DNA from: Lactifluus volemus | Lineage: Eukaryota; Basidiomycota; Agaricomycetes; Russulales; Russulaceae | Direction of reading: 5' to 3' | NCBI GenBank assembly: GCA_022376515.1 | Contig: WTXI01000015.1 | Coordinates: forward strand, 248,001 to 312,000 | Length of the DNA stretch: 64,000 bases | Shown here: piece by piece, positions 16,033 through 51,700 of the stretch | Layout of the letters: each line of letters starts with the position of its first letter | Position numbering within the stretch: the first letter of the stretch is position 1 | Translations under genes and position numbers: made by a program | The notes under the pieces: model-generated | What the model was told of the DNA's origin: nothing | Database searches by the model: none | Seen by the model: the letters and a program-made list of their open reading frames with translations, nothing else

Positions 16033-19000
16033 TTAACTACCGCTACGTCCTAAAGCCTTGCCTATGAGACTTGTATCTAACACGGGAAGAGGATTCTTTC
16101 CAGGCAATGTAGGCTTGGGAAGAAATTCAACGTGTATGAGCCAGGACAGATATTTGGCCATCAACTCATCCGAAACAGTTCGACTTCCCTTGTCGTAGCC
16201 TCTCAAAAGCGCACACATATTTGAATCGTCGAGGTCAGGGGACTTCGTGCTTGTGGGCAAATCATCTAGGACAAAGTGGAGGAGGGGGAACAATGCATTG
16301 TCTTGGACATCCATGACGTGCTTTTCGAGCTTGCGCCTCCAAACGAGGTATTCGCATCGTTCTGTCGCAAAACCGTAGCGGGGGAGAGATGAAAATATGT
16401 CGTTGTATGTGGGAAGAGGATGTGCTCGTATGTGGAGGGCAGTCATCCCAGCACCGGGATTGCGAGAAATCGCGGCTTGTGTGACACACAAAGCCACGTG
16501 ATCAACTGGTACCATGTTGATGGTGTTGTCAATATCGGGAACCAGTCCAAGTTGTATGCAACCCTTGACAAGGCGCCAGATAAAGTCGTCTGTATTGGTC
16601 ACTAAACCGCAAATTAGATAAAAATAACCACCTGGCTTCACTTTCGACACACCTGCAGATTCTGCATCCCCTACAACGTAACCAGGGCGAACAATGTAAC
16701 CGCACAGGCCTCGTTTCCCAGCTTCGAACAGTAAATTTTCTGATACCCATTTGGATTGACCATATCCAGTCTTTAGGCCTGTACGTGAGCCCTCGAGGGT
16801 ATCATCTTCGGAAACACCTTCTCCCAAGGTTTCGGAAAGTCGAACATAATGTTCGGTGTCTATGACTGAAGTGCTTGACACGAAAATGAATTTTTTGGGC
16901 TTTCCAAGGTACGCCAATTCAATCGCTCTTAACGTCCCTAGGACGTTGGCAGAACGCAACCTCTCGTATGGGTATACCCAGTGGACCTTGTACGTGAAAC
17001 GGTGCATCAGGGAAATATGATAACGGACCATAGGAACTCTTGCTCACCAGAGCTCCATTATGAATCACCACGTCCACTTCCCTCGTAACGCGATCCCATA
17101 GTTGTGAAGAGAGACCGAAAGCCTCCTGGTCCAGGTCACCACAGAACACTTCTAATCGGGCAGTGCGAATCCAACTCTCGTCCCAAATACCACGGTCACT
17201 TGCACTCTGCCTCAGTCGTTCAGCAGCCTTCGTGTCTGTCGATGAACGAACAATACAGATGACCTTTTTAACACTCTCGCGTGAGAGAAGGCTACGCAGG
17301 ATGAAGCCACCCAGGAATCCAGTAGCGCCAGTAAGAAAGACAGTGAAACACTCCTTCCCGGCCTCAGGGAAGGTAGGTTGAAGGTAAGAGGGTCGTAGCG
17401 TGGAACGAAGGCCATCGAAGTCCTGGCTGTAGCTGATATTGTTTCTTGGGGATGAATCTTTAGCCGTGTCTGGGGCTAGGGCGTTTAAGCCGGTGAGACC
17501 GAAGTCTGCGAAGCGCAGAGAGTCTATCGCCTTGGACAGCCCCGCAATTGTCGGCTCATCAAATATCAGACCGAGGGGTGCATTCACGACAAACGTCTTT
17601 CGGATCTCGAAAATCAGCCGTGTGGCGAGAATAGAATGACCCCCGAGATCGAAGAAGCTCTCATCGAATGGGATTGGGGATGGTGCAGATGGAAGAATTC
17701 GAGACCAGATAGTCCGCATAGCTTGCTCAGTTGAGCTAGCTGCACGGGTATCTGCTTGAGGCCGCGTGTCGTAGGAAGCTGCTTGTGCAGTGTCTGGGAA
17801 GGGAAGGGATGGCTTGTCGATCTTGCCATTTGGATTCAACGGCATCCTTTTTAGTGGGACGAACACTATGTGATCGTAGTCAGACAAGCTACGTCTGGAT
17901 GAACGGACATACATGTAGGAATGCTGTAACTGGGAAGTTTTTTCTTTAAATGTTCTCTAATGTCTTTGATGAGTCTCCGATACTTGCGAATACCGCCAAA
18001 AACATCTCCGTCCTCGGCTAGATCACTAGCGAAGCCATCGAGATTGGGCCCCTCAAGCGGAACGATGTAGCTGACCAAGACCTTTTCTTCGTCTTTATCT
18101 CTTCGAACCAACGTGACATTTTCCCTGACAAGGTGGTGTTGACTGAGGTGGGTATCGATCTCTCCAAGCTCGATACGGAATCCTCTTATTTTGACTTGAT
18201 CGTCGGCACGTCCCGTGCATTCCACAATGCCATCTGGCATGTAACGTCCAAGGTCGCCGGATCGGTACATTCGGTCGCGAATACCCTTCCAGTGCTCGGC
18301 TTCTGGGCCGGGAGGGCCCCGTTCAGTGGTTGGAGGAGTGTGTCGTGTCGTTCGGCCGTGGTGGAGAACCAGTTCATCACGAACTTCTCGGCGGTGGCAG
18401 CTAGGTCTGAATACCCCTCAGCTAGTCCTCCGGAGCGTACGTAGATCTCCCCAATCTCCCCTACAGCACAAGGGACATGCTTGTCGTTCCTATTCACAAT
18501 TAAAAGTTGAACGTCAATCATGCCTTGGCCCGCAGGTATGATGTCTTTTTGTGTCGCAAGGAACGTAGAGTCGTCAGAGATGCTCGGTATACTGAAGTAA
18601 GACACAGCCCGTTGTGTCTCTGTTGTTCCGTACATATTTATGATGCGGACATTGGCTGCTAAAGACTGTAGGCGGGTGCAGTCACGTTTAGTCAGGACAT
18701 CACCCACGAAAAAAGCGTTGAAGAGGGAAGGAATTCTACACGTGGCTTGAGCGGATAGAAGCTGTCCCATAGCTGGGGTCAAGTGCGTAACCGTCACTTC
18801 GCTATTGGCCATCCATTCCGCCAGCCGCCCCGGGGTGTTAATATCATCGAATGTCGGAACATGAAGTTCGGCTCCAAAGAAGAGGGGGGTAAACACTAAT
18901 ACAGTCTAATAAGCATGTAGAATGGAGGGAATAAGAAGCAGCAATCTCACTATCACGTTGAATAGGATCATGGGCAATACCGCTGAGCATTGTAAACCGG

Positions 19001-20544
19001 AGGACTTTCCAATGTGGAACGTGTGGCCCATCCACGGGAAAAAGTGTGTGAGGCTATAATGTCGACCTTTTACACCCTTGGGTATCCCGGTACTCCCGCT
19101 CGTAAAAGATAGCGTGGCGATGCTATCTGGGCCAATGACAATGTCTGGATCATAATCTCGCATGTTTTGAGGAAGGAGAATATCCGTGTTATGACTATCG
19201 GGACCTCCAGCAATAGAACCGTCGGCATGCAGCTCCAAAGCAGGCACCTCGACGCAGATATGAAGTTCGGAAGCTATGAAGGTTCGAACAGTCGGGCTGA
19301 TCGTTCCCGCGCCTTTGAGTAGAATCAAGCCACGAGGTTGGGCAACACGAAGATAGATAGTCTGCCTCGAGGGAGGGTACGCAGGATCTACGGGGTGTAA
19401 TTTGGTGTATCAAAAGGGATTCAGATGGGCGGAACGTACCAATAACAGAGAAAACTGCTCCAGCCTTCAGCGTTCCCATGACTGCAACAACAAGGTCGAC
19501 ACTACGATGCGCATATACCATGACGATATCTCCTGGCTTGATGCCCCCAGAGATGAGGTGGTGGGCTAGAATGTTTGATGCTCGAAGTATTGCTCCATAC
19601 GAGTAGAACCTTTGTTCCTGTGGTTTGTCCAAGTGGGCTGCAGGGATGCTCTGTACAACACATGTTCGTTGGGGAAAGTGCCGAGCATTTTGAGAGAATA
19701 TGTCGGTGATGGGGCCTTTCCAGTCGCACCAATTCAGGTCTGCAGTTGGATCAGGTAGATTGACCTTTTGGGCAGGTGTCAACAGAGGGATGGACCCGAC
19801 GGGGGACAACGGATGGTGAGCCGCTTTGCGGAGAAGAACGGAGAGCTGATCGACGATATAAGAAATACGAGTTCGAGCGAATAGAAGCGAGTTGTATATT
19901 ATGCGCAGCGATATACGGGGTGCGACGGGTTCATGAATAGAAGCGGGGGTTCGAGTGACAAAAAATGTGATATCAGAAGTGAGAGCGCTAGACTGGATGA
20001 AATTCTCCTTCTGTGCATCCGTTTGGTCAAAGAATCTGACACGGAAGATGGACCTGGACGCTTCTGGAACATCGTCTTTATCTTTTCCAAGGGCTCGTAC
20101 CACGGTTTCAAGCGGCAGACAGTCCTGTTCGGCTTCACGCTCGGCCTGTTGAACATTTTTGACTACGGCCCAAAACGGATCGCTTGGTTCAACTGATAGC
20201 CTAAGAATGAGAGGATTTCTGGCAAATGCAGATGAGGAACCAATGACAAGATCTGTATCTCCTGTGTGCCGATGCAAAACGACCACGAAGGCGGAGAGGA
20301 GTAGATGAAACGCTGAAGGCCGATGTGAAATGGCCAAATCGTCCTCGTCTTCGGTGAAATTCTCGTCATAGAGGGCAAGTTTTAGCAAAGCCAGCGAGGT
20401 TTGTTCTGAGAGTTCGGCAATATGGGCTGCCTCAATAAGGCGCTGTGTTCCCAAAGGCCGGGGATAATCTGTGGGCAAGGTTATGGAGGGAAAATTACTC
20501 AAGCGGGCAGTTATTCGAGCCAAAGCTTGAGTATCTGAAGACAT
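16033..20544 (-). CDS. lys2: L-2-aminoadipate reductase large subunit Lys2
   Basis: Lys2 activates 2-aminoadipate with ATP, loads it on its carrier domain and reduces it to the semialdehyde with NADPH, a step of fungal lysine synthesis. The start at 20544 gives [19 protein letters not shown]. An N-terminal condensation-like segment is followed by the adenylation domain ([20 protein letters not shown]; core [59 protein letters not shown]). The carrier domain has [14 protein letters not shown] with the phosphopantetheine serine. The C-terminal reductase has the Rossmann start [18 protein letters not shown] and the catalytic pair in YGQSKW. Several short introns are present. It needs Lys5 for pantetheinylation, which is not seen here. 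There is an apparent frameshift near 18300-18345 (see findings). Confidence 0.93.
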
Positions 20545-20767
20545 GGCCAGGGAGTGGAAGGGCTGACCTGGCTGCTGGTCCGGGTCTAAACCTAAACCCG
20601 GCGGACCCATCGGACTCATTTCGGCCTTTATTTCGGATTTTCGGGGATCGAACAGGCCGAACACAGCATTTGAATCACAATTCCTATCTGAACAGATCAT
20701 ATCCTACACCATATGTTTTATTTATAACCCCTATTTTTTCCCACCTAAGCGATGCGGCCATTCACGT

Positions 20768-37573: not shown

Positions 37574-39300
37574 CATCTATGTATTATATTAAAGGAGGGC
37601 TGTCTTTTTACCAAAGCAGGCTGCAGCCACTGTTAGGTGGCTCTCATTGGTTGGTGTGGGGTTGTGTGCCTGACTGGTCACAATCCACAGACTCTGGCCA
37701 GGCTGTTGCCTGCTGGTGGCCCCTATCATCAGTGGGCTGCAGCTGCTGTTGGGTGGCTCTCATTGGTTGGCATGGGGACGTGCATCTGATCAGTTATGAT
37801 CTGCACTCTGTGGCCAGGTTGTCGCCCGCTGGTAGCCCCTATTATCATTTGCCACATATTTAACCCAGCGTGAGCTTGTTGTTTATGGTGACGTTGCATG
37901 CCACACACTCATTCACACTGCCACCCTCTGTGCTGCTCTCATGGGTCGGCCTGGGGCATAGCATCTGACATCACGGCTGTCTTTTTACCAAAGCAAGGTC
38001 TTCAGTTCAACTGGCACCTGACCGCAATTGCAGCATGTTCAACTCAGCATGAACTGCCTGCATTCATGAGGACGACCATTTGCTAAAGCATGCTGCAGCT
38101 GCTGTCTGACTTCTTTCTGTCCCCTCTCAAGATTTAGAATGACCAATCTTTGAGCCACCCAGGCAGGCAGTACCAGTCAACGTGGGTTGCAGGTGTGTTT
38201 GGTCAACAACAGGTGGCATGCTGAAGACAGTTCAGTCAGCTGATCTGAACGCCAGATTTTAATCTTTGATAATACAGTTTATCACATCGTTTTCTCTGCC
38301 TTACTTTTTGACAACTTACAATCTCAGTGTTTTCTCTCCCCCCCCTGTCTCCTTCTCATGTGTGCTATCTCAAAACGGCAGTTGGGGAAGCACTTTCTTG
38401 TGGATGACATCACTGATGGCAGACTTTGGACCCCTCAACTGCCTCATTTGGTTGTTCCTCACTTGGCCGTGCACCTGGTTCTTTCCACCTCCATCCCCTC
38501 CGTTGCCTGTTCCCTCATTGCAGGACAGTTTGCAGCCCCCATCGGCTGGCTCTCATTTGTTCATGCAAGGTTGTGCTCTTGACCTGTCAACATGATGTGG
38601 TCGGTGTGCAGTGCAGGAACCATTCAAGATCCGCAGACTCTGGGGTCATGGTGTGGCCCCAGACTCTGGCCAACATTGTGGCCAGGTGGCCTGTTCATTA
38701 AAGGAGCTGGCATGGGGTTGTGTCCTTGCCCTGTCAACACAATCACACTGATGAGGACAGTATTTTTCTACCTATCTGCAGCTGAATCCACTGGCTGAGT
38801 GGTGCATTAGGGGCTGTCTGCATATAAATGTGCACATGATTTCTATTTGGCTCCGACTCGCACATTGACTCCTATTTCTCAGTTTTCCTTCATTTTCTCT
38901 GACACTGTTTCTCAGTTTTCCTTCTTTTGCTTTCACTGTCTTACCAAAGCAGGCTGCAGCTGCTGTTGGGTGGCTCTCATTGGTTGGCATGGGGCACAGC
39001 ATCTGACTTCAGGGCAATCTTTTTACCAAAGCGGGCAGCAGCTGTGGTCAAGCCACTCTCATTGGACGGCATGGTGCACACATAGACTGGCCTGGTTCTG
39101 TGTGAGGATTCCAGACCAGTTTAGCCTTGATTGGCAAAATCAATGGTGTAAGTACATAGCATTTCAGTTCTCGCAAGCACGTCCTCTAATTTCACGCACA
39201 GTGTACAGTACTGTCGATTCTATCAACCGCTGCCATTCGCTAGTGCATTTGATCACAATGTTGGTTAACCTTTTTTTAAATTAACTTAGAGATGAAATAT
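37574..39300 (+). repeat. Interspersed short repeat zone
   Basis: A module of about 50 bp recurs: TTACCAAAGCAGGCTGCAGC, then a GTTGGGTGGCTCTCATTGG block, then TTGGCATGGGG. Good copies begin near 37605, 37733 and 38939; shorter or altered ones lie near 37980, 38530 and 39015. The spacers also share phrases (CACAGACTCTGGCCAGG). No protein is recognised. Confidence 0.75.
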
Positions 39301-39583: not shown

Positions 39584-41393
39584 TTGTCATCTTTGCTTCT
39601 CAATGTTGAGTTGTACAACACAATCCTTTTTTTCTCCCACATTCAAACATCATATGACATCACGATGACAGGATTGAGTATAATATGTGGTCTTATTTCA
39701 TGTCATGATCCTCAATCAGTGTTTGGTGTAGAAAAGCCCAAGACTCTTACATTTGATGTAGACATCTTTGTTCATACTGGTGAAGATGACGAGATCAAGA
39801 TTTGCAAAGCATTGCTTCATTACTTTGTGACTTACGATCTATCAAAAGTTTCAAATGACGTCTTAGTATTTGTTGTCAGAAAAATCTCAATGGTTGATGA
39901 AGAGACTCTAGTTGGAGATGGATACAATTGGGAAGATTATGCACTTCAAATTGAAGTGATTTGTGTACATGTTGTTACCCTAATGTCTCTGCTGCAGTAA
40001 AAAAGAGAATAGAGGCTGATGTTCTTGTGTTAATAGTTTGAACCTATTGAAGTCAACGAAAATAACCCAGTGGCTGCTTTCCCTCCTGTCGTTTCTATTT
40101 CTGGTGAAGTTAGTATTAATTCAATTTGCTATTATGATTAAGTCAGACTCTTAAACATTTCCTGATCATCATTTAACAGGCAGGTAAATCCATTGATGAA
40201 AGAACATTTGTGTTTAACATCATGTAATATACGATGAACAAAATGAAACCTGTTCATTATATCTGTGAATGTTCGGAGTCAACACCGTGATATCGAGAGT
40301 TGTGTTTGGTTAGGTTGCCATTCCTCAATGTGTTAACCACAGTTATTGGTGTGTCTATAAACACTAATGTTTAAAACATTGTTAAAGTAACATGTATGTT
40401 CATAGGACACATTAATTGCAAAGAATTAGAAGAAATAAAGGGAGAGTGTAGAAAGTGAATATTTATCAGTGTCACAGATGTTATGGACTGACACATGCTT
40501 GCTGACTTATACTATACATTTTTGGACTGATGACTCATTTCTGCTGACTCCCTTGCTTATGTGAATGGACTGCCAATCACTTTGTTTCAGATCACTTACT
40601 TATTTCTCTCATGATACAGCCTTGCACAGCACTGCACAGCTGCAAGTAACAGTCACATTCACAGGATGACTTGCTGATTCCTGAAACATGTTTCAAAACC
40701 TGAAAGCTGTATAAAGGTCACAGCCTTGTCTTCTTCTTGTATATAAACCCTGTACTTTCTGCCCTAGAGACCTTAAGTCTCAGTTTTGTTTCGCATTCCA
40801 AGTCTTCTATCTATTAGAACCTTGCTTGCCTAAGAAGCATCAGACCTGAGTGAACCCTCTTGACATCACACTCTTCGACTTCTTGACACTTTGGTCTCAC
40901 CCCTGAGCCTAAAGCCCTTGACTTCTGAAATGCTCTTGACTTAGTCATTTACTAAGTCTTGTCTTTCTCAAACCTTTGATCTTGACTTGCACGTCTTGCA
41001 AGTCTCACTCTTAACTTCATGACCAAATGTACACTTTGTACAAAGGTCCCACTTGGAACCTTAACAACAGATGTCATTTTTTTGTTAGCAGAGAATGCCT
41101 TGACTTAATCACCCTGTATGACCCAATTTTTTTGGGAGCTACTAAAACATAAAACTGATTTATTGACAGGAGGTAAAAAGAGCTATTGGAAATCTCTGTC
41201 TAAGACTGTTGCTTCTTCCTCTCCTTTGACCCTGTTCAACAAACGTGTTTCTCCAGATTACAATGTATCACTATCAACTTCTAAATGTGTCAAGTTGAGT
41301 AACACTTCAAGTTGGCAGGAGAAAGGGAAAGCAAGGGCACACAATAATAGTGAAGAAGACATATTAACAGATATTGATGACTCAGACAGTTAA
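39584..41393 (+). pseudogene. Unknown protein gene, broken by a solo LTR
   Basis: An open stretch at 39660-40000 reads as plausible coding sequence (KPKTLTFDVDIFVHTGEDDE, then EEVTLVGDGYNWEDYALQIE with variation) and has codon texture unlike chance. After a possible second exon (FPPVVSISGE near 40075) it is split by the LTR at 40479-41066. Beyond the LTR, LDLITLYDPIFLGATKT is followed in another frame by an acidic tail ending SEEDILTDIDDSDS. I do not recognise the family. Frameshifts and stops suggest decay; joining the two sides as one gene is inference. Confidence 0.45.
40479..41066 (+). mobile_element. Solo LTR, family 1, with 5-bp target duplication
   Basis: The 588-bp repeat starts TGTTATGGACTGACAC and ends GGAACCTTAACA (TG...CA, with 5-bp inverted ends TGTTA/TAACA). 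It is flanked by ACAGA on both sides (40474-40478 and 41067-41071). A promoter-like TATATAAACCCTG lies near 40740. It is the same family as the LTR at 61922-62525. No internal region is present, so it is the product of LTR-LTR recombination. Confidence 0.93.
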
Positions 41394-41454
41394 CGTGTTG
41401 CCAAAGAATCATCACCTGCAGTGGAGAGGTTTACTACATCAGCAATTGTCCATG

Positions 41455-41700
41455 TTGCTTAATGGTGATTAGTGGTCTTAATGGTCTTAAATTTACTTTT
41501 TTGCTTAATTTTGCTTGATGAAAATTTTGTTTAAGCGCAATTAAGCAACTTAAGCAGGCTCAACATGCTCAGCACAATTAAGAATGGCATTAAGCATGCT
41601 CAGTATGCTCAGCACTATTAAGACTGACACTAAGCACACTTAACATATTTAAGCAACTAATAAAAATTTAAGGGGCTTTTAATTGTGCTAAGCAAAAAAA
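41455..41700 (+). repeat. Left subterminal GCTTAA/TTAAGC array
   Basis: About ten copies of TTAAGC or GCTTAA with one-base variants alternate with GCTCAGCAC-like words. Dense subterminal hexamers are typical of transposase binding zones in hAT elements. Confidence 0.8.
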
Positions 41701-41902
41701 CATAATTTACATAATCTCACTAATCCAAAAATTTTTGTAACTTGCGAAATTTTTGCTAAGTCGTTTGTTTATTCTTGTTGGCACAATTTTCGTGCCTCAT
41801 TATTTTCAACCACCTGTTGCGTGACTCCACACCGTCACGGTGCCTGCCTCAACTGGCCACCGCCCATGTGAAACCCACCAACTCTGCCTCCGCCTCCGCC
41901 CG

Positions 41903-42380
41903 AATGCCCCCTGTCCCAAATGTCCGATTTCACTCTTTTTACCTTGATCATTATCCAAAGCACTCCGAGTTGCTCGCTATTCGAACGTGCCGTCTTTGGG
42001 TCATCTCGGAGTTTGTCTCCCTCTCAGCCTACTGCATTACCGACAAGTACGAGTCCGCATGGAATGGACAAACTCCTTCGGGAATGACCATACACGCACT
42101 ATTCACACCATATTTCATCCCAGCTGGCGCAAAGGGATACGATTCTTCGTCTCCATTTGTGCACTACAAGGGAACCTGGGTGGACGCGTACTCCACAGAC
42201 TACATCGGCGGCTCACTCCGAAAGACGACCGAAAAGGGTGCAGCTGTCTTCTTCACCTTTAGTGGGACGGGTATAGAATGGTTCGGTTTTATGGGCCTGC
42301 GACATGGCTCGGCTCACGTGTACATTGACAGACACTACGTGCAGCGCATTGACGCATATGCCCAACGTGACCGCGTCTAG
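41903..42380 (+). pseudogene. Captured fragment: galactose-binding-like secreted/membrane protein domain
   Basis: The frame reads VHYKGTWVDAYSTDYIGGS, then FTFSGTGIEWFGFMGLRHGS and AHVYIDRHYVQRIDAYAQRD. This pattern (GTW-D, FSGTGI-WFG, G-A-VYIDG) recurs in basidiomycete proteins with a jelly-roll, carbohydrate-binding-like fold. Both ends are cut: no signal peptide before it, and a stop right after QRDRV at 42380. High GC sets it apart from the AT-rich flanks. Confidence 0.65.
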
Positions 42381-42424
42381 CATCTGAAATCTCGTTTTGC
42401 TGATGGTTATAGCAACCTTTCCGA

Positions 42425-42720
42425 CCACCTCTGCTATTCCATCTCGATTTTGGAAGCGCTTGTTGCTCTGATTACGCTGGCTCTGATTGCCCCCACCGCC
42501 CCGCGACGATGACTGCCACGAGGCAGAAGGCTGCCATGTTCGGTCTTCTGCATTGCGTTGAGAACGGTCGCTTTGAAAATCCCTACGCTTCCAGTCATTA
42601 TGTTGACGATTTGTATGACCACCTTGCCTCGGCCCCCATGAGTCGTTTGTCCGCCAGCCCTCACTGCGACCGTCGTCCCTATGTCAGCCCTTCGTTTCTT
42701 GCTGCCAATCCGATCTCCCT
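42425..42720 (-). pseudogene. Captured fragment: Asn/Gln/Arg/Gly-rich protein, reverse orientation
   Basis: On the minus strand one frame reads HTNRQHNDWKRRDFQSDRSQ, then WQPSASWQSSSRGGGGNQSQ and NKRFQNRDGIA: low-complexity, RNA-binding-like composition. It is antisense to its neighbours, so it must come from another gene. The parent is not identifiable. Confidence 0.45.
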
Positions 42721-42770
42721 TGACGTTGTAAATTGGCAGGGGTTCTTTCGTTGTGAGTGGGCCAAGAATT

Positions 42771-43285
42771 GACCGTAGAATGGGCAGGAGGAGCGTCGTA
42801 CAACGGGGGTCAATGCTATGCAACTTGTGATCATCTCGCCGTCACATGCGATCATCATGGACAAGGTAGAGCACAACCTGCTGACGGTCGATGGTCACCC
42901 CGCATGGGGTGCGCTATACAACTTCAACACTCACCAAGTCACCCCTCTGCCCATGAAGAGCAACTTGTTCTGCGCGAGCGGCGCGTTCCTCAGTAATGGC
43001 ACCCACGTCAGCGTGGGTGGGAACCCTGTCATCGAAGACTACACCACACCAATAGACTTTGGTCAGATGGACGCCGGCAGGCAGGCACTGCGACTGTTCG
43101 CACCGTGCAAGACGACCGACGCATCCGGGTGCGACATCTATGAGAACACAGAGTGCATTCGTCTTGCAAGTCCGCGATGGTATCCAACCGTTGTGAGGAT
43201 CCAAGATGGGAGCGTGATCATTATCAGTGGCTCTATACGTGGCGGGTGGATCAACAACTCAACTGTCTGGTCCTCCTTCGCCTCC
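42771..43285 (+). pseudogene. Captured fragment: glyoxal oxidase / copper radical oxidase, N-terminal region
   Basis: From NAMQLVIISPSHAIIMDKVE through DGHPAWGALYNFNTHQVTPL, NLFCASGAFLSNGTHVSVGG, GCDIYENTECIRLASPRWYP and VVRIQDGSVIIISGSIRGGW this is the start of an Agaricomycete glyoxal-oxidase-like protein. It retains the Cys of FC-GG/FCASG, equivalent to the residue that makes the Tyr-Cys cofactor. It stops abruptly near 43285, whereas the intact enzyme is several hundred residues longer. It carries no catalytic C-terminal half and cannot make an enzyme. Confidence 0.8.
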
Positions 43286-43660
43286 CCATCGTCCTCGCGC
43301 TGTTTCCACATCTAGCACATCTAGTGGTGCCGGATCAACGGCACCCCCCACGAGCGACAGACGTCTGACGACCATGCCTACTCCCTTGCTACGCAGTGGA
43401 CAGATGCTCGTCTACCCCGAAGGATACCTCTGCCCAAAATGTGTGTCACTTGTCCTATCCTGCTCTGCTCACCTGCTCACCTGCCCACTCGCTGCCCATG
43501 TCCTACTCACACACGTCCAACATCAAGGCCACAATACAGGCTACAAGAACTTGACCCGTCTCACCCGTGCCACAAGTGCTGGGATCGCGTTGGCAAGCCC
43601 TTCACGAACGTGCTCGCTTCGAGCCCGTGGGGTAAACAAGGTGATTCCCCCTCCACATTG
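43270..43660 (+). pseudogene. Captured fragment: CxxC-motif protein, intron retained
   Basis: The exon ending PLLRSGQMLVYPEGYLCPK joins, across an intron at 43441-43527 (GTGTGT...CAAG), to CHNTGYKNLDPSHPCHKCWD and then RVGKPFTNVLASSPWGKQG. The CxxC pair plus C-x2-C looks like a small zinc-binding module. Because the intron is kept and splices in frame, the capture was from genomic DNA rather than from mRNA. Family not recognised. Confidence 0.6.
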
Positions 43661-43879
43661 AGCCAGAGCCACTTGTCCCATTGTCCATTGCCTGTGTTCA
43701 AGCCCCCCCAGGAATGCACAGATTGCTGCCTGCACCATCGATGCCCGGCTTGTATCCCCGAACCCCTGCGGTGCGCTCCTCCTCCTGTGTGTTGTGTCGT
43801 ACGTTTTGTGGCCTACCTTACCTTCACTGTGTTCACATACGGCGTGCATACAACCTGCCCCCGCAGTTGAGTCGTTGTC

Positions 43880-44200
43880 GTGGCCCAGACCGCCACACTC
43901 AGCGATTCCATCTCCGGTCTGACACAACTCCTCGGCACACTCTGGCGCACATACGGCCCCACCATTGTCGCCGGCGGCACCGCCCTTCTCCAGTGCCAAG
44001 GCGTCGCCCCCAACGCTGCCCCTGCAACAGCCACCCCGCGAGGTTACGATCTCAGCGATGGTCCCGAGCCCGTCCCCATGCCACACATGAAGCACCGCAC
44101 CCCTCAGGGTCTTTCACCGGTCTCAGAGAACGTGTTGAGTTGGTCCCGGTGGCCATTTCGAGGAGGTGCCCAGCGATGCCAAGGGCGAGTGGTCGGCTGA
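43880..44200 (+). pseudogene. Captured fragment: unknown small protein N-terminus
   Basis: The frame starts MAQTATLSDSISGLTQLLGT and continues LWRTYGPTIVAGGTALLQCQ, a plausible amphipathic/membrane-associated N-terminus, then Ala/Pro-rich sequence. It loses coding character after about 44110 and ends at 44200. No family recognised. Confidence 0.4.
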
Positions 44201-44994
44201 CTCCACCCCCTCCGCTGCCTTTGTCCATAAACACGGTCCCTGGGTGCGTTGCTTTCTTTTTTTTTCTTTTGACTTCTCAGACTAACTTTTTATATTCCTG
44301 TCTACGGTGTCATGCTGCCCGCCCCAACACCTCCTGCACTGCCTCCTCCTGTGTGCCCGCCCCATCTAATGCATCCTGGCACATCCTCGTCATGTCTTCT
44401 GGCCTTGCTCTACCACCCATCCAGGGCCCTCCTCAACAGCCCACGCCCCCACCCGCATTTGAACCACCTCGGAGTCAGAGCCCGATGCAAGGTCGCGGCC
44501 AGACGCAGACTCGTCCGCTCTCCCCTACACCCAATGCTGGAATTAGAATAGGAGCTCGTGATTGCATGCGCGGTGTGTTTGCTGGTGCGTGATCGGCCTC
44601 CTGTCCTTCTCCTACTAGTATGACTCCTTCTGTACTGCCACCCACAGTATCTCTGCCGCCCGACCCCGAGCCCACCGCTCCTCCTATTTCTGGCCCAAGT
44701 CCCCTGACGATCCTGGTAGACCTGCGCAGTATGGGGCTTGATGACAGGACCGGATCCACAGGTCATTATCAAGATCATATGCATAGCCTCCACCACCTCT
44801 GCCTGCCCCACCTGCTTCTCCTGTGCCTCAAAGTATTGTTGAGAGTGTTTGGTCTCCATTGTTGATTGCTGGTGGATTAGAAGAGGCCATATGCACACTC
44901 AGATAGAGTATAGATAGAGTACTAATGTTGTAATATAGTTGACTGAATATACTATCTTATTGATTGAATTTTACCTGATACTTCTGTGTACTTG

Positions 44995-45250
44995 AAACTG
45001 CTTAATGTTGTGCTTAGATTGCTTACATGTGCTTAATTTGATGCTTAGTGCTGCTTTAAAAGGTAATTGAATTTCTTGGAATTTTGCTTAATATTGTGCT
45101 TAATTAAGCACAATTAAGCACAACATGTGCTTAATTAAGCAGAATGGTGCTTAATTAAGCACCGGGGTGGCGTTAACCTGCTTAATCATTTTGTGCTTAA
45201 TTTGTGCTTAACGTGCTTAATAAGCACGTTAAGCACACATTAAGCAACAT
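44995..45250 (-). repeat. Right subterminal GCTTAA/TTAAGC array
   Basis: More than fifteen GCTTAA/TTAAGC hexamers, many fused as GCTTAATTAAGC palindromes. A 35-bp palindrome lies at 45203-45237. It mirrors the left array in inverted position. Confidence 0.85.
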
Positions 45251-45617
45251 GGACAATTGCTGATGTAGGCAACATACTACATGGAAACGTTAACTATGGA
45301 GGTATATAGTATTTCAAATTGTGTTGAAGACACGTGTTATGATTGTCTCACATGTTCAATTCTGTATTGGAGTACTAGTAGTTTGTAAGTTGTTGAAGTA
45401 TGAAAGGTGAATTTGTAAAGTATATTGTAAAGTATTGTAATTCTGAATGACACTCAATTCTGTGTCTTGTTGAGACAGTGTGAAATGGTATCTTTTTGTT
45501 TACCAGATATGGAATCAAATCCAAGGCTTCGCCTCTTTAGAGTCAACCCTCATTAATTGAGTTCAGTCTTTTTGCTCACTGTGAAATACTCATGTGCACT
45601 GCCTCATAGCATGTTCT

Positions 45618-45793
45618 TACATCAGAAAAACCCATCTGGCCTTAAAGTGTATTAGATGCTCCTTAGAGCTTACTTAAGTGTCTTATTAACATTGGTAATT
45701 AGACCCTTCTACTTACCACTGTCAATAAGACACTTAAGTAAGCTTTAAGGAGCATCTAATACACTTTAAGGCCAGATGGGTTTTCCTGATGTA
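45618..45793. mobile_element. Foldback MITE
   Basis: Two arms of about 72 bp, nearly perfect inverted repeats (start CATCAGAAAAACCCATCTGG; two or so mismatches), are separated by about 25 bp and flanked by TA on both sides (45618-45619 and 45792-45793). It has no coding capacity. TA duplication suggests mobilisation by a Tc1/mariner-type transposase. A second, one-armed copy is at 32334. Confidence 0.88.
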
Positions 45794-48768: not shown

Positions 48769-51700
48769 TCACCTTTTCCTCTTCGCTTTTATCTTTCCTC
48801 CTCTTATTACATTGAGGTTGTGCTGGTAGAATTCCTTAATGAGCTCTGGAGCCTTCACATTGCCAGCAGGTTCCCAACTATCATGAGCAGGTAAATATCC
48901 CTTCCAACGAAGGAGATATTCAAGTTTCTCTACCTTCTCTTTCTTGTGTGCATCAATGATCTGTTCCACCTCATATTCTGGTTTGCCTTCTATCAGATCA
49001 GGTGGTGGTTCCGTGAAGTTGCGCCCATGCTCCTCCGTCTCCTTGTAAGGTGTTAATAAGGACACATGGAAGTGTCACGGTTCACAGGGACCATGGCTTG
49101 AAGTGAGCGTCGTTTCTGGGCTGACTATTTGCTGTGGCGAGTCGGACAAGACTAGCAACACCAAATAGTAGGTCTAAGAACACGCAGACAAGTTCCTGTG
49201 AAGGATAGACTTGACTGTGCAAACTCTCAGTATTTGTATCGTGTGTGGCAGATAACATGGGCCGGCGCACATGATGGTCAGAGTTACCATTCCCAAAGAG
49301 GATAGACGGTGGCAGATAGGTAAATGATGATGTGTGGGTTCAACTGCAACACAGGCGCGAGCGTACTGGGGTTAGAAGGGATCTTTCTAGCCCTAGTACA
49401 TTAGTGTGAGGTTGAACTAAGGTTCAATACAAGTGGGGCATGAAGAGTGGGAACTACTCTTTGCAACACACTTGTAATAAGGTTCAGGCATCTGTGAGCT
49501 TGTTCCAAAGGTAATGGACCAAGTGAACAGATGTCTGATGGTGGCGCGAAGTACCTAAATCAAGGTACAAAGAGGGGATTCACAAGACAAGAGGAGAAGA
49601 TGCGATATGAGTGTGAGCAGGAGACAATGAACTGCGATTCTAGATGAAGCTGAAGCTGGGGCTTTAGCTCATCTACAGGGCCCTATTTATACATACAGAG
49701 GGCCAGTCAACTATTCTACAAAGGTCACAGTAAAGTAGTGTAGTCAAGACTATTGACTAAGGATCTGACTCAGTTCTGATGACTCAAGAACTGACTCAGT
49801 GCGTCTGACTCAAGATTTGAGTTATGATCCCTAAGTCAAATACACATCCAAAAAGGTGACACACAGCCTCTAGAAGTTGAACAGAGGGGGCTGGCCAAGG
49901 AAAGGGATCCTAGGTTGTAACACAAGGCAAAAAACAGATGGAAAACAGTAGCAAATGGGCCGGACGGCCCGCATAACCATAACAGGAAGACATTATGAAT
50001 GCACCAGTGTGGGGGAAGCTGGAGGTGGTACACCACTTGTGAAATGATGTCAATGATGGGGAATGGACCATGTCTTTTTGGCCCCAACTTTGCAGATGGA
50101 TATATTGTCTTTAGGTTTGTTCTCTCCAACAATACTTGCTGTCCTTTCTCAATTGGGTGGAAGTGTCTTTGGCCCTTCTTTCTCTGGCGCCATTTCATCC
50201 ACAGTTCCTGCACCTTTCTGATAGCATCTTGGGCGTGCTCCCTAGTCTCCTTCAGCCATATTTGCCTCTGATGCAGTGCTGAGACATTTGTACTTTTTCC
50301 AGAGAGGCAAATGATTGGGTTTGTGCCCCACAGGAGTTCAAAGGGAGTCTTCTTTGTGCTCACATTTGGCCAGGAGTTGTGGACAAATTGGGTGAGAAGA
50401 AGAAGGTTTGCCCAGTCATCTTGTTGGCTACATCCATAGATCCATAAATATTTCTCCACCCACTGATTGGCATGTTCTGATTGTCCATCAGTCTGCGGAT
50501 GATAAGTAGAGCTGATGTTCTGTGTGATTCCCAACAGTTCACACATCTGGTGGGTGAAGTGTGCAGTAAAATGGGGATCTCTGTCTGAAATGACATGGTG
50601 GGGGCAGCTGAAGAGAGGGAAGATATGTTCCACATAGAGCCGGGCCACTTTCTCTGCGTCAATTGTCTTTTGACAGGGCAAAAAGAAGGCTGCCTTCGAG
50701 CAATTGTGGTCCACTATTGTGAGGATTGAGTCATACCCCCTCGAAACTGGGAGATTGGTGATGGGGTCGAGTGAAATTGTCTGGAAGGGGATTGTCTTTC
50801 GCTCAACAGTGATTGGCATCAGTGGTGGTTTAGGTTTCACAGTGTTGGGCTTTGTCATTTGGCAAGTTGCGCATTCTTTGACATAGCTCTGAACAAATTG
50901 TTGCATCGTTGGCCACCAGTAGTCCTCAGACACTTTCTGAAGTGTTGTGGCAATGCCTGGGTGCCCAGCCAAGGCGTGGTCATGGTATTCATGTAGAATC
51001 TGTTGCTTCAGATCTTTCTGGTTCACAACCACAGGTCTCCCTTGGTGCACCCAGTGGTGATTTACTGAATCAAGTGGGTAGGAGCGACGCAGCTCTGTGA
51101 AGTAGTCTGGTGTGTGTGCTTGCCAATCCCAAACCTGCTGTTCAAGACCGCTAACTTCTGCTGCCCATGCAAAGAGTTTGTCAGGTAGAACAAGGGTGTT
51201 CTTATTATCATGTTTCCCTTCATCCACTCCTGGTGGTCTGGACAACATGTCAGCCTTGTTCAGCTTGCCTGGGCAGTGTACTAGCTTGTAATTGTAGTCC
51301 GCAAGGTCACTAAGGTACCTTGCCACGTGTCTGTTAATTCTCTGGGGTTGCCAGTAGTATCAAAGATTATTATGATCGGTGTTAACAATGGTGGTAAAGG
51401 GAGAGGAGAGGAACAAGTGTCTCCATCACCACAGACCCTGGATTACTGCCAAGAGCTCTCTATCATGGACATTGTACTCTCTCTCAGCCTTGTTCAATGT
51501 CTGGGAGTAGTAGCCCACCGGACAGAGTCTCTGCTTGTTATTTTGTTGATAGAGGATGGCTCCAGTGGCATACTGGGATGTGTTCACCTCCATCTCAAAG
51601 GGGCAGTCATAGTCAGGTCTTTGGAGGACAGGATTGGATTCTATAATCTGGAGAAGTGTATCCAAGGCTCTGGTGCACTCATCTGTCCACTTAAATGGTC

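Follow-up and report, generated by a model that had tools for sequence, protein, structure and literature searches.

The 3,829 bp stretch at positions 41437-45265 of the window (the whole 64,000-nucleotide stretch of Lactifluus volemus DNA analyzed here) is a Pack-type element, as originally predicted: it has terminal inverted repeats (TIRs), target duplications, fragments that can be traced to donors and copies at unrelated sites, and no transposase was detected in its 10 open reading frames (ORFs) scanned with Pfam, again in line with the original prediction. We consider it quite probable that its ends identify it as a non-autonomous, PlavakaB-like (CACTA-related) TIR transposon and, as part of the same explanation, that host-gene fragments became nested in it through internal gap repair.

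The ends had been described as perfect inverted repeats of 31 bp. The pairing is indeed perfect, but the repeats proper are 28 bp long, flanked by CTA/TAG that hold the TA target duplication; since the three bases preceding CATCAG vary among the other genomic copies, the element is delimited at 41437-45265 with 28-bp ends. More broadly, the inverted arms at 41429-41464 and 45238-45273 are 94% complementary, and the window contains two oppositely oriented occurrences of the 29-base end, compared with 0.00 expected from shuffles. The features of the two ends are as follows (C-numbers, such as C57 or C246, denote contigs of the 62.4 Mb host assembly and element types are named by contig, the present element being that of C57):

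41435-41436: left target-site duplication TA (C57 context ...ACTA / element / TAGG...)
41437-41464, plus strand: left terminal inverted repeat, 28 bp (CATCAGCAATTGTCC...)
41456-41655: left subterminal TGCTTAA array
44867-45265: right end, with TGCTTAA/TTAAGCA array at 44999-45246
45238-45265, minus strand: right terminal inverted repeat, 28 bp
45266-45267: right target-site duplication TA

The mirrored GCTTAA arrays and the GC-rich core noticed at the outset are both confirmed. Of the 26 TGCTTAA motifs counted in the window (expected 7.6, sd 2.7), 22 are inside the element close to its ends, and the GC content is 0.535-0.581 at 42-45 kb compared to 0.36-0.39 at 45-48 kb. The left end, approximately 250-400 bp including the TGCTTAA array, matches the other 28 analyzed elements, as do the last 123-133 bp of the right end, where a longer stretch matches only some of them.

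A search of the host genome with the ends, which the original prediction had proposed, recovered many other copies with different cargo. In particular, when up to 3 mismatches were allowed, 77 ends were found in the assembly, compared to none for a reversed-pattern control, and 29 complete elements were analyzed. All 29 pairs start with CATCAG and end with CTGATG, a regularity that the search pattern itself favors. Identical 2-bp flanks surround 21 of the 29 elements (probability near 1e-19 if each match has a simple chance of 1/16), and 1 further element has a 3 bp duplication; altogether, 8 elements lack a matching 2-bp flank. The cargo falls into 15 groups, including oxidase, MCM and aldehyde dehydrogenase fragments; copies of the same type differ by 0.4-1.3% (13 aligned pairs), and Pfam detected no transposase in 20 ORFs of the other elements. 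The search for empty sites was successful for the family, with element-free, junction-spanning counterparts identified for 7 of the 9 insertion sites queried (5 of these across the whole query stretch), but not for the C57 insertion itself, nor for that of C223.

The target duplications separate this family from several other groups of elements. Across the 29 copies, the longest identical flank is 4 bp and most are 2 bp, so that Mutator (Pack-MULE) elements, with duplications of 8-11 bp, were rejected; Tc1/mariner elements, which duplicate TA only, were rejected because only 8 of the 21 duplications are TA and 13 are other dinucleotides; and Helitrons, which have neither TIRs nor target duplications, were rejected given the presence of both. 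The hAT superfamily, with 8 bp duplications (5-7 in variants) (PMC12730594), was rejected on the same flank lengths. The termini CATCA..TGATG together with the 2-bp duplications match PlavakaB, for which 5'-CATCA..TGATG-3' termini and duplications of 2-3 bp are described, Plavaka being related to EnSpm/CACTA (PMC12730594).

Matches to the Plavaka domain comprise 168 stretches in the host genome (one gene may give several) compared to none in 14 control genomes. Among the matches listed, none was seen by eye to lie between a pair of element ends. No transposase was found by inspection of the ORFs in the long copies C51, C111, C348, C624 and C190, the first four of which contain LTR-retroelement-like ORFs and the last one LINE-like ORFs. 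A search for an autonomous partner through the subterminal palindrome TGCTTAATTAAGCA yielded none away from the known copies among the 100 of 192 matches listed.

The cargo of the C57 element matches six separate loci, namely C246, C112/C81, C556, C2, C124 and C343/C92, and its pieces are arranged as follows:

41847-41935, plus strand: C246-gene fragment part A, outer layer
41936-42382, plus strand: copper radical (glyoxal) oxidase fragment part A, from C112/C81, middle layer (92.7% identical to C112)
42383-42796: fragment of C556:487818-488233, innermost layer (98.1% identical)
42797-42799: 3-bp filler at the C556/oxidase junction
42800-43267, plus strand: copper radical oxidase fragment part B, middle layer resumed (Glyoxal_oxid_N match)
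43268-43772, plus strand: C246-gene fragment part B, outer layer resumed
43796-43848: 53-bp piece identical to C2:320967-321019
43850-44215: piece 86% identical to C124:50087-50481, common to the C140 type
44390-44728: piece 86-87% identical to C343:12350-12700 and C92:63894-64241

Thus, the C556 piece lies within the copper radical oxidase fragment, which itself lies within the C246-gene fragment; 214 bp of the donor are missing between the two oxidase parts, and 101 bp between the two C246 parts. The predicted copper radical oxidase piece was recovered by Pfam as a Glyoxal_oxid_N match (9.6e-14) in the ORF at 42779-43312, and its donor is a recognized gene. The ORF that had been called galactose-binding-like matched no family in the Pfam scan; this stretch and that of the oxidase both derive from a single donor gene, of which they are collinear parts on the same strand. 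Accordingly, of the claim that the cargo derives from five unrelated genes, the multi-gene origin stands, but two of the named pieces belong to a single gene that a later insertion divided. The two ORFs of the C246 donor that were scanned gave no Pfam match, and its reading frame seems, by inspection, to be broken in both donor and element.

Nesting is not specific to this element. In all six cargo types searched (that of the C57 element, C58, C140, C43, C9 and the first copy of C596), each of which has cargo matches outside elements, an older fragment is interrupted by a fragment from an unrelated locus. Capture junctions are near-blunt. The C43 type carries the C246 fragment free of the oxidase insert, and the left junction of part A is identical in the C57 element, C43 and the C379a type; likewise, a 960-bp insert of C9/C97 is absent from C379a/C32b. 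As judged from sequence comparison, the C43 type and C379a/C32b retain earlier, uninterrupted states of the cargo. Outside CpG context, the C246 pieces of the C57 element and C43 share 2 derived changes compared to 12 and 20 private ones; the shared changes being few, it is the identical left junction that points to a single ancestral capture. Layer order is not always mirrored by divergence: identity in the C140 type is lower for the middle layer (81-90%) than for the outer one (93-97%), and the inner WD40 piece of the C43 type reaches no more than 81% identity with its best relative. The region C1:85391-86330, which contains the nested stretch of the C596 first copy unbroken at 86% identity, is probably a decayed copy of that element.

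The nesting of fragments and the uninterrupted states kept by sister elements favor repeated internal gap repair with template switching. Under this mechanism, a transposase supplied in trans would bind the TIRs, probably along with the subterminal TGCTTAA repeats, and insertion duplicates mostly 2 bp, as seen in the copies. Host-gene pieces would have entered at the DNA level during repair of gaps or breaks within existing copies, the repair strand copying an unrelated locus and rejoining with almost no homology. Some captures would also have removed a stretch of older cargo, with new pieces placed inside earlier ones as in the nested arrangements above, and transposition then spread the new configuration, as the multi-copy groups show. 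We give an even chance to the broader proposal of a recurrent collector of gene fragments in mushrooms, driven by Plavaka-type ends and growing inward by a new host fragment in mid-cargo with each cycle of excision or breakage and repair.

Recombination or gene conversion among elements already carrying different cargo could account for part of the mosaic: parts of the right half of the C57 element are common to C168, C140 and C108, and C9 and C379a have blocks in common with reciprocal insertions. As the main source it is unlikely because it leaves the first entry of host pieces unexplained, and the inner pieces from C556 (98.1%) and C423 (99%) each match one non-element place, and none of the scored candidates was of another element type. 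The route described for Pack-CACTA in a 2026 review (PMC13317346), whereby neighboring elements with complementary terminal deletions fuse as a hybrid enclosing host DNA and later layers form likewise, is quite unlikely here. Plavaka is related to EnSpm/CACTA, and neighboring insertions of the family do occur (C32:84824-87773 and 87874-91578 are 100 bp apart), but this route predicts element DNA bordering host DNA, whereas in 6 of 6 types the host fragment is interrupted by a non-element fragment, and the donor sequence resumes after the insert, in one case without a lost base (C611:57508/57509). Capture of spliced transcripts as cDNA, which would resemble the transcript capture described for histone H3 transduplication in Pyrenophora (PMC6710886), might be suggested by the donor stretch C2:321075-321216 that the C140 type skips, possibly a removed intron; it is very improbable given that an intron-like GT..AG stretch is kept in both the C246 donor and fragment, and no poly-A was seen at the junctions (both by inspection). 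Finally, a reading as a native gene with several exons or as a chimera of the assembly, for which the several ORFs of 100-315 aa in the core might speak, is already refuted by the copies: the ends number in the dozens and enclose different cores, there are target duplications and sites free of the element, and the pieces map to different contigs.

The captured pieces look like passengers, although a coding or regulatory role is possible. None of the observations lends support to the original suggestion that the element can give rise to chimeric transcripts. CpG change is one-sided in these pieces, most strongly in C246 part B, and the C556 piece shows little asymmetry (2/63 vs 3/162); the captured pieces decay mostly through CpG-to-TpG change. 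When nonsynonymous and stop changes were compared with random placement of the same mutation types, fewer than expected were observed in the oxidase parts (10 vs 15.4, P 0.015; 9 vs 15.9, P 0.002) and in one MCM part (19 vs 25.4, P 0.019), with no significant deficit in the second MCM part (4 vs 5.9, P 0.145) and none in that from aldehyde dehydrogenase (11 vs 10.8, P 0.66), for which the donor frame used had 3 stops. These deficits were not read as functional constraint on the element because they include donor-branch divergence and because, when polarized with 60 homologues out of the 119 available besides P0001, the 22 amino acid differences in the oxidase parts are assigned as derived to the element in 17 cases and to the donor in 4, with 1 unclear. 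A junction residue accounts for one of the 17, and several affect residues invariant among the compared homologues; the homologue comparison gave no sign of retained function, and the oxidase pieces look like decaying sequence.

The route of capture by TIR transposons is still debated, with gap filling, fork switching and tandem hybrid excision all under consideration. Here, the order and place of capture can be read from recent copies, traceable donors, sister elements with earlier states and fragments within fragments, and capture models therefore become testable. If the elements are indeed inward-growing collectors, each would amount to a layered archive from which captures can be dated, and together they would form a general counterpart, in basidiomycetes, of Pack-MULEs and Pack-CACTA, assembling chimeras of several genes. 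Stepwise capture is reported in the title of a study of maize Helitrons (PMC3288121).

The original prediction knew of no well-characterized fungal case. There are precedents in ascomycetes (PMC3538342, PMC6710886), where hAT transduplicates histone H3 and Tc1/mariner carries an ORF. These are likewise fungal TIR elements bearing and amplifying extra sequence of host type; they differ in being single ORF captures by other superfamilies, with no multi-donor mosaics described in the excerpts of these sources. Among the matches listed from the open-access literature (subscription papers and preprints fall outside this scope), there was no report of a Plavaka Pack-type element or a basidiomycete Pack-TIR, so within that literature Pack-type gene shuffling is extended to a new superfamily and fungal group. 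Helitrons of Pleurotus (PMC4289320) are similar as basidiomycete class II elements with extra genes. PlavakaB of Agaricomycotina (PMC12730594) shares the termini and short duplications, and the Plavaka domain is abundant in the host genome; the present element differs in its host-gene mosaics and in the transposase not found inside, and the excerpted text on Plavaka mentions no gene-fragment capture. For animal Pack-TIRs (PMC8277862), gap filling or template switching is likewise proposed, multi-copy forms are amplified by transposition and their captures are GC-rich; layered multi-donor nesting, as in the mushroom element, was not seen in the excerpts of that source. Plant Pack-CACTA and Pack-TYPE elements (PMC13317346) are likewise non-autonomous TIR elements of the same broad superfamily that carry host-gene sequence, but their capture is described as proceeding via tandem insertion with terminal deletions, whereas in the mushroom element cargo is nested in cargo.

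The element spans positions 41437-45265 (3,829 bp), is flanked by TA on both sides and is bounded by perfect inverted repeats. These were originally predicted to be 31 bp long, but their true length is 28 bp, and the element is three bases shorter at each end. The mirrored GCTTAA arrays described in the same prediction are readily recovered: 22 of the 26 TGCTTAA sites of the 64-kb window (C57:248001-312000; C-numbers denote contigs of the host assembly, 62.4 Mb in 628 contigs, and the elements found on them) are located inside the element, close to its ends.

The 29-base end has 77 matches in the host genome at up to 3 mismatches (36 forward and 41 reverse) and the reversed end sequence, a control for chance matches, has none; the first 15 bases of the element match 108 times at up to 1 mismatch, compared with 2 for the reversed pattern. 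The analysed set consists of the 29 complete end pairs among the fetched loci, with other pairs, such as those on C607 and C628, lying outside it. Single linkage of the cores yields 15 groups among these elements, so that the search for copies with different cargo that had been proposed was productive; the largest group (7 elements) comprises two types joined only via a retroelement common to C51 and C348. Most of the elements (25) are 1.96-4.0 kb long and four (C51, C111, C190 and C348) are 9.9-15.4 kb long and contain retroelement-like ORFs; C624, outside the set of 29, is of the same kind. Identical 2-bp flanks are present in 21 of the 29 elements (TA in 8, CA in 4, AA and TC in 2 each, five others in 1 each), for which the chance probability is about 1e-19 at 1/16 per copy, and one further element has identical 3-bp flanks. 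When the joined flanks of nine insertions were queried against the genome and 40 of the 337 candidates were scored, element-free matches spanning the junction over the whole 160 bases at 91-100% were found for five (C140, C226, C97, C58 and the second C334 copy) and partial ones for two (C43, ~90%; C9, ~85%). Because several of these lie in repeated sequence, they represent related empty sites and are not proven to be allelic. These data show that the family has moved by transposition, mostly with 2-bp duplication. The alternative that the ends occur only here and lack empty sites is contradicted by the 77 end matches and the seven element-free sites, although the element under study is one of the two insertions with no such match among the scored candidates. 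Two pairs of fetched loci on different contigs (L057/L062 and L058/L061) share the same element end and flank, and the assembly therefore probably holds both haplotypes in places. Other features of the window are the following:

16033-20700, minus strand: consecutive ORFs with Condensation, AMP-binding, PP-binding and NAD_binding_4 domains, which look like an NRPS-like reductase gene
37619-37847: tandem duplication, two copies of a 116-bp unit
~40980-41060: uninterrupted copy of the repeat into which the C412 element inserted (compared by eye), apparently a related empty site that lies within the window
45618-45793, ~350 bp outside the element: near-perfect foldback of two 86-bp arms, 94% complementary with 4 bp between, possibly MITE-like
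49836-51326, minus strand: integrase ORF (H2C2, rve, Tf2-1-like SH3) of a Gypsy-type retroelement

The captured fragments match host donors at the DNA level and are nested. Along the element, C246 part A is followed by oxidase part A, C556, oxidase part B and finally C246 part B. The oxidase parts match, in order, one strand of a single copper radical oxidase donor (C112:113083-114201, and equally C81), of which 214 bp are absent between them; the two C246 parts are arranged in the same way on one strand of one donor, with 101 bp absent. Identity to the donor decreases outward, from 98.1% for C556 to 92.7-95.5% for the oxidase (against C112) and 90.5-92.1% for C246. The fragment joins show 0-1 bp of homology, one of them with 3 bp of filler, and pieces matching C2, C124 and C343/C92 are found downstream of the nested layers. 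The same oxidase gene is present on C112 and C81, which differ by 1.7% and look like two haplotypes. For one donor gene, the best named relatives over most of its length are from Russulales (Multifurca 71%, Lactarius 67%, Russula 62-66%); Rickenella scores higher, but that alignment covers 60%. These relatives place the host probably within Russulaceae.

Nesting was sought in 6 of the 15 groups, chosen rather than drawn at random, and is present in all six types, including the element under study; the others are:

C58 type: MCM-gene fragment (C46, C316) interrupted by a C423 piece (99%) and a C201-type piece (91%)
C140 type: aldehyde dehydrogenase piece (C168/C205, 96%) within C556:1024498-1024733 pieces within C2 pieces
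C43 type: WD40-family piece (labelled from its translation) within the C246 fragment
C9 type: pieces of the C576/C507 and C591/C605 types within a C2:912418-912924 fragment
C596 first copy: 635 bp matching C434 inside C611:57301-57655, which is contiguous at the donor locus and has lost 0 bases in the element

Identity to the best match is usually higher for inner than for outer pieces, except in the C43 type and, for the C140 type, in its middle layer. The nested stretch of the C596 first copy is also present in one piece (86%) at C1:85391-86330, probably a decayed element copy. The WD40-like piece (L029:1641-1937) falls within a very large repeat gene family of the host genome; the query returned 201 matches, and most of those listed cover this piece.

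Earlier states survive. The C43 type contains the C246 fragment and lacks the oxidase insert, and the left junction with this fragment is identical in the element under study, C43 and C379a; this common ancestral junction points to one ancestral C246 capture, after which the types probably gained their other inserts separately. The 960-bp insert of C9/C97 is absent from C379a/C32b, and a 600-bp stretch of C379a is absent from C9/C97. Copies of the same type differ by 0.4-1.3% (thirteen aligned pairs), and by BLAST C32:84824 and C140/C223, as well as C379:58928 and C32:87874, are 97-98% identical.

Pfam identifies a Glyoxal_oxid_N fragment in the element (9.6e-14) and MCM_OB (2.5e-25), Aldedh (3.6e-16), DUF4112 (2.5e-07) and, below the Pfam cut-off, SH3 (5.4e-06) fragments in others; 15 of the 20 ORFs scanned from other elements have no Pfam family at 0.01. 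Of the 114 donor CpG positions compared with C246 part B, 29 read T or A in the element, against 5 of the 210 remaining C/G positions; in the reverse direction, the donor shows such a change at 1 of 56 CpG positions of the element. The same but weaker lean is seen in oxidase part A (11/76 versus 7/166; reverse, 4/64), C556 (2/63 versus 3/162) and aldehyde dehydrogenase (3/116 versus 0/274), a pattern that would fit methylation-linked decay of silenced repeats. A C-to-T change created the stop in which oxidase part A terminates, and of the 22 oxidase amino-acid differences from the donor, 17 arose on the element side; at the sequence level, we see no apparent sign of the chimaera being kept as a protein.

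The family starts with CATCAG, ends with CTGATG and makes 2-bp duplications, resembling PlavakaB families, for which the available text of a 2025 study (PMC12730594) gives 2 or 3 bp duplications and 5'-CATCA..TGATG-3' termini. The Plavaka domain has 168 matching stretches in the host genome and 0 in 14 control genomes. None of the Plavaka matches listed, as a candidate autonomous partner, sits between two of the family's ends, and the putative PlavakaB assignment therefore rests on the ends and duplication length. The subterminal palindrome TGCTTAATTAAGCA also occurs in pairs with the same 49-bp spacing at C19:52031-52093 and C223:298487-298549, with none of the ends listed nearby, perhaps marking a related family with other ends. 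The variant CATCAGCAAATGTCC, found among the matches listed once each on the minus strand of C1, C35, C53, C98, C124, C208, C297, C438 and C593, is another dispersed repeat.

Transduplication by TIR elements is already published for ascomycetes (PMC3538342, PMC6710886, available excerpts) and Pack-TIRs for animals and plants (PMC8277862 and PMC13317346, likewise in excerpt); among the matches listed in the open-access literature, there is no Plavaka-based or basidiomycete Pack-TIR family. The tandem-hybrid route of Pack-CACTA, as outlined in the excerpt of PMC13317346, is an alternative source of captures but would not readily produce host fragments directly inside host fragments. We infer instead that the captures probably arose when internal breaks or gaps were repaired with template switching. 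This model was put forward for the Pack-TIRs of animals in PMC8277862, the available part of which describes it as proven with the P element.
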